Assembly: GCF_000380185.1 (NCBI RefSeq)
Contig: NZ_KB904753.1
Span: 1-64,000 of the forward strand
Origin: Thiofilum flexile DSM 14609
Lineage (GTDB): Bacteria > Pseudomonadota > Gammaproteobacteria > Thiotrichales > Thiotrichaceae
Reading direction: 5' to 3'
DNA length: 64,000 nucleotides
Part shown: piece by piece, positions 18,740 through 21,870 of the stretch
Layout of the letters: the number at the start of each line of letters is the position of its first letter
Numbering within the stretch: position 1 is the first letter of the stretch
The notes under the pieces: model-generated
The model's input: only the letters and a program-made list of their open reading frames with translations
Database searches by the model: none
Told to the model about the DNA's origin: nothing
Position numbers and translations under genes: made by a program

Positions 18740-19030
18740 GCATAATCCTAGTTGTAAAACAGTCTGCATTACAGACAGAGCTGTTGGTTAAGATCCATTA
18801 TTGGCAATAAATCTATCGCATTAAGTGACCTTGATCATTGCCATATGCAGCGCCTGTTGGGTTGGTGGCAGGTTTTGCAGTGGTGTTGTGGGGGCATTTT
18901 AGCAAGTCAAGCAGCAATATGCATTTCATCCATACTATTCAAGCTATTATTTGGTTTTGCTGTGCCATAAGTAATAAATCATCAAAGGTATGTATGTGAA
19001 TAATTCGTGACCAATCAGTGTGCTATAGGT
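18740..19030. other. Intergenic region with a short coding-like fragment
   Basis: No intact gene is seen. On the minus strand, 19019 down to the stop at 18939 reads TDWSRIIHIHTFDDLLLMAQ and a few more residues, which looks like the C-terminal tail of a lost gene. The family was not identified. The rest holds the ubiG promoter side and the lead-in to vapB. Confidence 0.35.
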
Positions 19031-19088
19031 TTGGATTTAAGCCCGGAATCGGGTTATGATTGAGCTGTATATGTCATGAGGATATACA
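19031..19088 (+). promoter_or_regulatory. vapBC promoter and operator
   Basis: TTGGAT at 19031-19036 and TATGAT at 19055-19060 form a -35/-10 pair with an 18-bp spacer. The inverted repeat TGTATAT (19066-19072) / ATATACA (19082-19088) lies at and after the start site and overlaps the ribosome site. This is where a VapB-VapC complex would repress its own operon. The binding role is inferred from position and symmetry. Confidence 0.55.
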
Positions 19089-19090
19089 AG

Positions 19091-19327
19091 ATGAGTAATG
19101 TACAAACAACGCTCTTTAAGAGTAATCGAAGCCAAGCGGTACGTTTGCCTAAAAGCGTAGAGCTACCTAGTGAAGTGCAACAAGTAAGAATTGTAGCGCT
19201 AGGTAGGCAGCGAATTATTACCCCACTCCATGAAAGTTGGGATGATTGGTTTGATCACCCTCATTGTACGGCTGATTTTATGGATGAGCGTCTGCAACCT
19301 AATGATCAGATTCGGGAGCTACTTTAG
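19091..19327 (+). CDS. vapB: VapB-type antitoxin (AbrB/SpoVT fold)
   Basis: The 78-residue protein has the VapB/VagC N-terminus TTLFKSNRSQAVRLPK, a swapped-hairpin AbrB-like DNA-binding domain. The acidic tail (DDWFD, DERLQPNDQIRE) would wrap the toxin. ATG 19091 follows GAGGA by 8 bases; a GTC-side longer frame from 19076 is not needed. The stop touches the vapC start, so the two are coupled. Confidence 0.88.
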   Translation: MSNVQTTLFKSNRSQAVRLPKSVELPSEVQQVRIVALGRQRIITPLHESWDDWFDHPHCTADFMDERLQPNDQIRELL

Positions 19328-19729
19328 ATGCTGCGGTATTTGTTGGATACCAATATGGTTATTTATACGATTAAAAATCGTCCGGCATCGGTACGTGAGG
19401 CATTTAAACGTTACGAAGGGCAGCTAGCTATTTCGACAGTGACATGGGGTGAGTTAATTTTTGGAGTAGAGCGCTCGTCACGTCCTGAGCAAAATCGTAA
19501 GGATATTGAGGGGTTGGCAGCACGTTTGGAGGTATTAATGTTTGATGATAGTGCAGCCGATCATTTTGGGCAGATTCGAGCCGAACTCTATGCGCTGGGT
19601 CAACCAATTGGCCCCTACGATATGATGATCGCAGGTCATGCCCGATCTCGTGGTTTAGTGCTAGTGACTAATAATACCCGTGAATTTAGTCGTGTAGCAG
19701 GGCTGCGTTTGGAGGGTTGGGTGAATTAA
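19328..19729 (+). CDS. vapC: VapC-type PIN-domain ribonuclease toxin
   Basis: The 133-residue PIN-domain protein has acidic active-site residues Asp7 (LLDTNMVIY), Glu42 (WGELIFG) and Asp98 (GPYDMMIAGHA), followed by the usual VTNNTREF box. VapC toxins cut RNA, often initiator tRNA, when freed from VapB. It directly follows vapB with no gap. All expected residues are present, so the toxin looks active. Confidence 0.9.
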   Translation: MLRYLLDTNMVIYTIKNRPASVREAFKRYEGQLAISTVTWGELIFGVERSSRPEQNRKDIEGLAARLEVLMFDDSAADHFGQIRAELYALGQPIGPYDMMIAGHARSRGLVLVTNNTREFSRVAGLRLEGWVN

Positions 19730-19837
19730 TTGGATTCAGATAGTATAGTGATCTATTATTTAGTTCGTATTTTGTTCGGGATTTACTTTAGAGAACTCGG
19801 AAAATCTTAGAGTAGCTAAAAATGGTAGGACTACATT

Positions 19838-20581
19838 ATGAGCAATAGTAGTAAGATTGAGTGGACTGAGCGGACGTGGAACCCAGTGACGGGATGTACC
19901 AAAATATCTCCTGGGTGTAAACACTGCTATGCTGAAACAATGGCGGTGCGCCTAAAGGCGATGGGAACACCAGGTTATAGTAATGGTTTTGAGCTATCAC
20001 TGATGCCAGATCGTTTGAGCGAGCCTTTACAGCGTAAAAAGCCCACTTTATATTTTGTAAACAGTATGTCAGACCTATTTCATGAGGATGTACCGTTTGC
20101 CTATATTGATCAAGTCATGCGGGTGATTCACCAAACTCCTCAGCATACCTATCAGATATTAACTAAACGCGCTGAGCGTATGGCAGAATATTATACTGAT
20201 CGAGTAATACCTCAGAATGTATGGCAAGGTGTTACAGTGGAGGATAAAAAATATGGTGTTCCACGTATAAATGCTTTACGTACAGTCAAAGCTAGAATTC
20301 GTTTTCTGTCAGTTGAGCCATTATTGGAGGATATAGGGGTAATTAATTTACAAGGTATTCATTGGGTGATTGTAGGGGGAGAAAGTGGTAGTCAGGCTCG
20401 CCCTATGCGTCCCGAATGGGCAGATAACGTCAGAATACAATGTGAAGCTCAAGGTGCGGCTTTCTTTTTTAAGCAGTGGGGCACGTGGGGTGCCGATGGT
20501 AAAAAGCGTAACAAGAATCTTAATGGACGTTTGCTTCATGGTAAACAATGGGATGGTTATCCACTTTCAGCGCATCCTTAA
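19838..20581 (+). CDS. Three-Cys-motif protein (phage Gp37/Gp68, DUF5131 family)
   Basis: The 247-residue protein opens with IEWTERTWNPVTGCTKISPG then CKHCYAE. Cys20, Cys27 and Cys30 form the C-x6-C-x2-C motif that names the group, and the motif resembles a radical-SAM iron-sulfur site. Other family blocks are NSMSDLFHEDVPF, YQILTKRAERM, RFLSVEPLLE and VIVGGESG. Function is unproven; homologues occur in phages and mobile islands. ATG 19838 follows TAGGA by 8 bases. Its 3' end overlaps the convergent tcmP gene by 15 bases, the partner known to accompany this family. The neighbouring vapBC supports an accessory island. Confidence 0.88.
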   Translation: MSNSSKIEWTERTWNPVTGCTKISPGCKHCYAETMAVRLKAMGTPGYSNGFELSLMPDRLSEPLQRKKPTLYFVNSMSDLFHEDVPFAYIDQVMRVIHQTPQHTYQILTKRAERMAEYYTDRVIPQNVWQGVTVEDKKYGVPRINALRTVKARIRFLSVEPLLEDIGVINLQGIHWVIVGGESGSQARPMRPEWADNVRIQCEAQGAAFFFKQWGTWGADGKKRNKNLNGRLLHGKQWDGYPLSAHP

Positions 20582-21484
20582 ATGATTGCGTATAATATCA
20601 TTAGCTACTCGTTTTGCTAGATCAGTAGCTTTTTGTCCTTTATTGGAAACGCAAAGGAATAAAGAAAATTGCTGTACACCTGTCACGGGTAGGGGTACTG
20701 GTTGAGCTACATAGTGAAATAAGCTTGATAAACGCTGATGTACATAGTTTTCTAATTCTTTAATACTAGCAGTTCGAGTAGTCTTATTAGAAAAGCCCCC
20801 AAATAAGTCCCCTTGCTTATCGGTATACTCATTTGAGTAAAAAATACGCTGCCACTCATCAGTGCCAAAAATAGTGTTAATCCGTTGTTTTTTATAATTT
20901 TCTATATTATCAAACTCTATTGATGTATTACGATACAGGCCAGAAAGAGAAAATAAAAACCATAAGTCTGTTTTCTCAGTAGCATTGATTTGTTGTAAGG
21001 TAGACCACTCAACACCTAAACCATAAGGATCAAGAAATAAAACTGCTCGCGTAAGGTAGCTAGCTCTACCCATTAGGTAGGTGTGAATAATGCTTGAAAG
21101 CTGATTGTTAGCATCAGCATGATAAAGTTTAATTCGATCTTTTAAGTGTTTGTATTCTTCAGATTGTACAATTTCTTGCAAACGCTCATAGTGTTTCTTC
21201 TTCTTTTCAATAAAGTGATAACTAGCGAATGCTGGTTGAGTAGCCAAGGCAATACGAGCTGATCCATCTAAAATGTCTACTTCCTTTTCTTCGTTAAATA
21301 AAGGGGCTGCTTCTTGTATGATCTGCTCGCGTTCGCCTGTACCTGCAAAAGCATCGATATACATTAGTTGAAAGGGATTTTCCCTTGTGGGTTGATATTG
21401 TAGAGCTTTGGTATAAAAGGAGAGGTAATCACGTAAAATAGCCAGTTTAATTTCAGTCCATGCACCACCAAATTTATGAGCCAT
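20567..21484 (-). CDS. tcmP: Three-Cys-motif partner protein TcmP
   Basis: The 305-residue protein starts with FGGAWTEIKLAILRDYLSFY and has YIDAFAGTGERE, the TcmP signature that resembles a methyltransferase SAM loop. Later VLFLDPYGLGVEW resembles the catalytic motif region of such enzymes. TcmP proteins are defined by their pairing with three-Cys-motif proteins; the biochemical role is unknown. Here the two genes converge and share 15 bp at their 3' ends instead of forming one operon. The ATG at 21484 has AAAGG 7 bases upstream. It is lower in GC than most neighbours, which fits recent gain. Confidence 0.85.
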   Translation of the reverse strand: MAHKFGGAWTEIKLAILRDYLSFYTKALQYQPTRENPFQLMYIDAFAGTGEREQIIQEAAPLFNEEKEVDILDGSARIALATQPAFASYHFIEKKKKHYERLQEIVQSEEYKHLKDRIKLYHADANNQLSSIIHTYLMGRASYLTRAVLFLDPYGLGVEWSTLQQINATEKTDLWFLFSLSGLYRNTSIEFDNIENYKKQRINTIFGTDEWQRIFYSNEYTDKQGDLFGGFSNKTTRTASIKELENYVHQRLSSLFHYVAQPVPLPVTGVQQFSLFLCVSNKGQKATDLAKRVANDIIRNHLRMR

Positions 21485-21870
21485 ATTTCGCCTTTCTCAT
21501 GTTTAGAGCACTATTAGTACTTGGTAAAGAATAGATTCAATACTATTGAAAATTCTACTTTTTTGATTAAAAGTTTGTCAACTTATTGATTGTGTGCAAA
21601 ATTTGTACAATAGAACTAACATCTAAAGGCATTATGATAAAAACAAGAAAAAATCGACTAGCGAGCTGATTTGTCTGACCTTCTGTTGGCGCACGGTCTC
21701 AATATGTGGCAGGATAGCGACAATAAGCCCCTTGTCGTTAACAATGGCATAGTGGGAAAGTATTTTGTTATCTTAAGCAACCATTAAAATCCAGCGCGCC
21801 AAAACTAATAAAGCAATAGTATAGTCATGAGTGTTGTCCGCAGTAGTACCACTGTAAAGGTAGTTATATT
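21485..21870. other. Intergenic region upstream of tcmP and mtnA, with possible gene remnant
   Basis: This holds promoters for the divergent tcmP and mtnA. An AT-rich part includes ATTGT...ACAAT symmetry near 21590-21612. On the minus strand about 21667-21760 reads IVNDKGLIVAILPHIETVRQ, which resembles the C-terminal part of DUF3368 PIN-type toxins. No start or intact frame remains, so it is at most a remnant. Confidence 0.35.

Follow-up and report, generated by a model that had tools for sequence, protein, structure and literature searches.

A mobile DUF5131–TcmP gene pair in Thiofilum flexile lies downstream of a candidate LexA box and may form an SOS-inducible nucleic-acid-processing module

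Introduction

What does a radical-SAM-type protein do when its gene meets, tail to tail, that of a methyltransferase-like partner, and is such a pair a new mobile or defence system? The question is raised by a locus of Thiofilum flexile DSM 14609, within a stretch of 64,000 nucleotides (contig NZ_KB904753.1, positions 1–64,000; the window), for which an initial annotation had proposed an undescribed system of this kind next to vapBC. The gene for the DUF5131 (Gp37/Gp68) radical-SAM-type protein (19838–20581, + strand; 247 aa; PF07505, PADLOC PDC-M41B/M30B) and tcmP, encoding its class I SAM-methyltransferase-fold partner (20567–21484, − strand; 305 aa; TIGR04474, PADLOC PDC-M41A), are indeed convergent, the former product carrying Cys20, Cys27 and Cys30, and their 3′ ends have 15 bp in common (20567–20581; TCAGCGCATCCTTAA). 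As that annotation also described, they lie with vapBC between ubiG and mtnA, which flank all four genes. The toxin–antitoxin genes (19076–19729, + strand), neighbours outside the module, were assigned by family profile matches (vapB, NF040493; vapC, PRK13725, tRNA-fMet type).

Results

The pair belongs to families that already have names, an assignment that is virtually certain. The DUF5131 product matches PF07505 (E 1.8e-108) and PDC-M41B (E 5.7e-110), and TcmP, with its three-Cys neighbour present, matches TIGR04474 (tcm_partner; 188.5 bits against a cut-off of 53) and PDC-M41A (E 5e-78); no Pfam family matches the TcmP of the window. Adjacent PDC-M41A and PDC-M41B matches, in genes overlapping by 15 bp, identify the pair as PDC-M41 of PADLOC-DB 2, a defence candidate by genomic embedding (PMC10855318). 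Since TIGR04474 and PDC-M41 already name it, the pair cannot be called undescribed; TcmP appears in few papers, and in the literature searched ‘three-Cys-motif partner’ is rarely mentioned and ‘DUF5131’ was not found. DUF5131 is not an equivalog of TIGR04471 (rSAM mobile pair protein A), because it scores 95 bits against a cut-off of 355.

The radical-SAM-type site suspected in the three-Cys protein is supported by both alignment and predicted structure. Across 63 homologues the only invariant cysteines are Cys20, Cys27 and Cys30, which form a CX6CX2C motif, and in the AlphaFold2 model (pLDDT 94.2) this three-Cys [4Fe-4S] motif sits in a partial TIM barrel whose top fold match is spore photoproduct lyase (SPL; Z 13.8, rmsd 3.0, 195 residues), followed by viperin (Z 11.4) and RlmN (Z 11.0), with LipA also matched. 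The spacing is non-canonical for radical SAM enzymes, and radical SAM chemistry is also supported by other three-Cys motifs (PMC3742179). On the model we hold a radical SAM fold to be highly likely, and the cluster motif found by computation leads us to expect Fe–S chemistry. The fourth catalytic Cys of SPL (the H-donor Cys140/141) is absent from DUF5131 in the 63 homologues. Because SPL needs this fourth, essential Cys (PMC3742179) and only three are invariant here, SPL chemistry cannot be assumed, and we therefore suggest that DUF5131 ‘works like an SPL-fold radical SAM enzyme’, not that it ‘is SPL’; Ser76 may occupy the position of SPL Cys140, a putative correspondence. An SplB-like sequence profile matches weakly (prob 12.5), the Cys motifs aligning with a 3-residue insertion, and a sequence search found no solved structures for DUF5131.

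In TcmP, the SAM-loop-like and DPY(G) motifs remarked on at the outset correspond to a conserved motif I (D44-x-F-x-G48-x-G50) and motif IV (D152-P153-Y154), and the SAM-site residues are its few invariant ones in the homologue alignment. Together with the Rossmann fold of the AlphaFold2 model (pLDDT 92.7), these motifs place TcmP among class I SAM methyltransferases by predicted structure, and a methyltransferase fold is almost certain as modelled. Trm1 (Z 16.1) and RlmJ (Z 15.4) are tied as fold matches, and the alignment to the RlmJ profile (prob 95.3) covers the SAM site and motif IV; TcmP is thus predicted to be a distant RlmJ/Trm1-type Rossmann methyltransferase-fold protein. Its identity as RlmJ proper was rejected, there being no PF04378 match, a distant profile match only, and an RlmJ of the host's own. 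Sub-cut-off TcmP matches in relatives' genomes resemble RlmJ, and the host's was verified as RlmJ by Pfam.

The two families keep close company. Of 200 sampled Pseudomonadota genomes, 21 encode DUF5131 and 14 a TcmP scoring above cut-off, which in each of the 14 adjoins DUF5131. A tcmP gene lies no more than 2 kb away for 75 of the 80 closest DUF5131 homologues in the genome collection, and 31 of these loci hold two. The convergent overlap of 4–23 bp recurs in 12 of the 80, and because these share it we do not regard the arrangement as a product of chance. Mutual antisense, which the overlap had been taken to allow, has no support as a general mechanism: same-strand arrangements are commoner, and most same-strand pairs lack such an overlap. 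Genes for short TcmPs (about 290 aa) frequently face that of DUF5131 with the 4–23 bp overlap, and those for long ones (about 420 aa), several of which carry a GMT-wHTH domain, lie downstream of it in the same orientation. Mean identity across 44 convergent pairs is 69% for DUF5131 and 32% for TcmP, and the distances of the two proteins correlate (Mantel r 0.38, 0 of 1000 permutations). The best reading of these alignments is a conserved radical enzyme that would serve diverse, fast-evolving TcmP partners, with which it may form a complex. E. coli genomes gave no DNA-level match to the pair, a search that divergent copies could escape, and a viral scan queried with the window TcmP alone gave none because that query is too divergent.

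A candidate LexA box of the GTTCN7GTTC class (GTTCGTATTTTGTTCGG; 19763–19779, + strand) ends 58 bp before the ATG of DUF5131. GTTCN7GTTC is a LexA motif known from alpha-proteobacteria (PMC3091678), and the host uses it instead of the E. coli-type SOS box: it lies upstream of lexA in 7 of 7 family members examined, the host lexA promoter carrying TTAAGTTCGTGTTTTGTTCGGTT and the DUF5131 promoter TTTAGTTCGTATTTTGTTCGGGA at the corresponding place. With any base allowed at the single differing position, the 3,785,882-base genome contains two copies of the motif GTTCGTNTTTTGTTCGG and no more, one upstream of lexA and one upstream of DUF5131. By this host-type predicted box DUF5131 falls into the LexA regulon of the host, and its control by LexA there is very probable on sequence grounds; given the box, the likely role therefore shifts towards the DNA-damage response. 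The box is new, no regulation of PDC-M41 being described in the literature searched. GTTCN7GTTC also stands upstream of DUF5131 in two relatives (L018/L005 and L001), at unrelated loci; no LexA box was found upstream of the operon-type pair in family member L002 or in the window's tcmP promoter, and no GTTCN7GTTC box in the recA promoter. A search of the window for an SOS box of the E. coli type gave no exact site, and one-mismatch sites were fewer than expected, so that such a box was rejected. Elsewhere in the genome, a LexA-box-like site with two mismatches lies near an HATPase-type gene (L224, G000:C30:14023–14039). For tcmP we note tentatively a candidate promoter, TTGACA-N18-TAGAAT, with the palindrome TTCAATA-N-TATTGAA after it (21536–21581, − strand) as a possible operator; a single repeat of this kind in 201 bp is not improbable by chance.

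Outside the family, the host-type box appears to give way either to SOS boxes of the E. coli type or to S24/LexA-like repressors next to the pair. CTGTN8ACAG is present in 7 of 267 upstream regions of the pair versus 3 of 901 neighbour regions (p 0.002), and in several genomes it stands 31–40 bp upstream of DUF5131; the SOS box of Marinobacter koreensis (L051) is close to consensus. At 21 of 80 loci the immediate neighbour of the pair is an S24 LexA-like protein, whereas 0 of 12 random control regions had one, and most of these repressors retain the Ser/Lys dyad and the A-G cleavage site. Carriers with a neighbouring LexA-like gene include Curvibacter (L052) and Roseateles (L065). Two S24 subgroups have a conserved palindrome at their own gene start; the palindromes (GTGTACGTTCGTACAC-like; GATTTCGTCACGAAATC) differ between the two sets (L034, L065, L066, L069, L076; and L030, L031, L043, L052, L068, L080, L084, L090) and are likely to be distinct LexA-like operators. 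In mycobacteria, we take Rv2734 to be the DUF5131 protein. Rv2735c, the mycobacterial TcmP gene, is co-transcribed with recA (PMC3062782), and the mitomycin-C-responsive recA–recX cluster includes Rv2734/Rv2735c (PMC5057432); Rv2735c would, by gene numbering, correspond to the annotated BCG TcmP (BCG_2748c, PMC7387457).

That the pair is mobile, as the initial annotation supposed, is apparent from plasmids, prophages, Tn7/integrase contexts and a site lacking it in relatives. In 6 of 6 family relatives checked, the ubiG–mtnA interval holds an amidohydrolase gene only, in place of which the host has vapBC and DUF5131/tcmP. This mtaD-like gene is missing from positions 18770–21870 of the window, and its closest counterpart at any other site of the genome shares 29% identity with it. 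Plasmid records with the pair or DUF5131 number 403 and phage records 161, the location often being the end of a prophage contig; in the viral contigs L102, L111, L125 and L134 the pair sits right at the edge of the viral sequence, an accessory position. Plasmid pCAR1 of Pseudomonas putida (L179) carries the pair. Integrases, relaxases, TnsA and transposases are among its neighbours. The suggested link to vapBC did not hold up: PIN proteins make up 2 of the 125 nearest neighbours and L001 has the pair in inverted orientation with respect to vapBC, on which grounds vapBC was rejected as part of the module. In that relative (G014:C14), three modules stand together in another order, and the grouping of vapBC with the pair there probably reflects shared island ecology.

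As to enrichment near defence genes, for which a neighbourhood survey had been proposed, some was seen and is suggestive. PADLOC family matches number 194 among the nearest neighbours versus 41 families in the random control, and a hand count of strong PADLOC genes within the 25 best-ranked families gives at least roughly 9 of the 125 neighbours, with DRT2, PD-T7-1, Druantia M and type IIG/III among them, versus 1 of 105 genes in the control (p 0.02). BREX-1 lies beside the pair in Nostoc and a DEAD/DEAH helicase in Agrobacterium; CHAT-domain protease genes occur near the TcmP cassette in a Nostoc plasmid (L180) and an Agrobacterium plasmid (L184). Where DUF5131 stands without a TcmP, in phages and elsewhere, DNA methyltransferases or phage replication genes are frequent neighbours (10 DNA methyltransferase domain matches in 96 neighbours, some from hand-picked phages).

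Discussion

The analyses presented here provide, by computation, the gene pairing, the predicted folds, the cluster motif, the mobility and the LexA box, and from these we tentatively favour the reading that the pair is a mobile, SOS-inducible nucleic-acid-processing module. DNA seems, by a small balance, the probable substrate, and repair or lesion processing is a plausible main role that we hold with more reserve. We suggest that the three Cys of the SPL-fold DUF5131 would hold a [4Fe-4S] cluster, which would cleave SAM to give a radical on a base, and that the RlmJ/Trm1-like TcmP would recognise the target and might also transfer a methyl group. Upon damage or prophage induction, LexA or a local LexA-like S24 repressor would be cleaved and DUF5131 thereby de-repressed; DUF5131 and TcmP would then act on DNA, with a damaged or modified base as the likeliest target, and the conserved enzyme would work with diverse, fast-evolving partners.

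In agreement, the candidate LexA box occurs only at lexA and DUF5131 in the genome, other lineages have SOS boxes or adjacent S24 repressors, the mycobacterial TcmP gene is in the recA–recX cluster (PMC5057432, PMC3062782), the SPL fold leads the next family (Z 13.8 versus 11.4) and TcmP-less DUF5131 genes stand beside DNA methyltransferases; the identities of 69% for DUF5131 versus 32% for TcmP, and the two TcmPs in 31 of 80 loci, are consistent with a shared radical enzyme. Against this reading, however, are the absence of the fourth catalytic Cys of SPL, the RNA methyltransferases that are the closest relatives of TcmP, the absence of a LexA box at the window tcmP promoter and in L002, and an adjacency to defence genes that suits defence equally well.

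A dedicated anti-phage defence (PDC-M41), in which the pair would recognise and inactivate phage DNA or modified bases and SOS control would arm it during infection or keep it in step with prophage induction, we consider unlikely. The PDC-M41A/B matches, the strong PADLOC neighbours (at least about 9 of 125 versus 1 of 105, p 0.02), the company of BREX-1 (Nostoc), a DEAD/DEAH helicase (Agrobacterium) and Hna (Sinorhizobium meliloti; PMC12445080) and the diversification of TcmP partners all fit such a role, but dedicated defence systems are not typically placed under the host's own LexA or in a recA operon, and mobile cargo in general adjoins defence genes. Repair and defence are not mutually exclusive.

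It is improbable that prophages and plasmids use the pair to hypermodify their own DNA and so escape restriction: phage DUF5131 genes do adjoin DNA methyltransferases and replication genes, and the 403 plasmid and 161 phage records would suit this, but chromosomal copies lie distant from prophages, and constitutive protection needs no SOS control. Modification of rRNA or tRNA under DNA-damage stress, to which the nearness of TcmP to RlmJ and Trm1 by fold and profile and the RlmN match of DUF5131 point, is if anything a shade less probable, given the DNA-centred genomic context, in which ribosomal or tRNA genes were not prominent among the neighbours, and the GMT-wHTH domain on long TcmPs. That DUF5131 is a maturase modifying TcmP as the effector, like the radical SAM maturases of sulfatases, is very improbable, for although sampled TcmP always occurs with DUF5131 and the converse is false, the few invariant residues of TcmP are those of the SAM site, with no obvious modification site.

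Returning to the SOS-inducible processing module, what is new here is the SPL-like predicted fold of DUF5131 without the fourth Cys, the RlmJ/Trm1 kinship of TcmP, the LexA box and the amidohydrolase gene at the site in relatives. DUF5131/TcmP is spread over bacteria, plasmids and phages with almost no literature, and the LexA box, the SOS boxes or LexA-like repressors and the SPL-like fold mean that a role of the cassette in the DNA-damage response, or in damage-triggered defence, can be put to a direct test. A wider proposal, that such pairs are a second, widespread class of radical-SAM enzymes that process DNA under SOS control, with an SPL fold and, in contrast to SPL, exchangeable methyltransferase-fold partners aiming them at different lesions or phage-modified bases, is doubtful at present.

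Finally, among known systems, SPL/SplB (COG1533) resembles DUF5131 in predicted fold (Z 13.8), in a three-Cys cluster followed by Tyr-Ala or Phe-Ala and in the precedent for SOS control, splB having been predicted to belong to the SOS genes of alpha- and beta-Proteobacteria (PMC3323433); DUF5131 differs in having CX6CX2C where SPL has CX3CX2C, in lacking the fourth conserved Cys, and in being mobile with a recurrent methyltransferase-like neighbour. The rSAM mobile pair protein A family (TIGR04471) is resembled below its cut-off. RlmJ, the 23S rRNA A2030 m6A methyltransferase, shares with TcmP the Rossmann fold, motif I, an Asp-Pro-Tyr motif IV and an N-terminal Lys, whereas TcmP has DPY in place of DPPY, is highly variable and DUF5131-linked, and by context is not ribosome-associated. 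NCBIfam TIGR04474, which the window TcmP exceeds well above cut-off, defines TcmP as the partner of a three-Cys protein, and PDC-M41, itself of candidate status, consists of the same two families (A, TcmP; B, DUF5131), with no known difference from the window pair. The Hna locus of S. meliloti differs in that no helicase stands beside the pair in the window, and resembles it in having two TcmPs and DUF5131 (L181), its TcmP gene SMa2243 being co-regulated with hna (PMC12445080).
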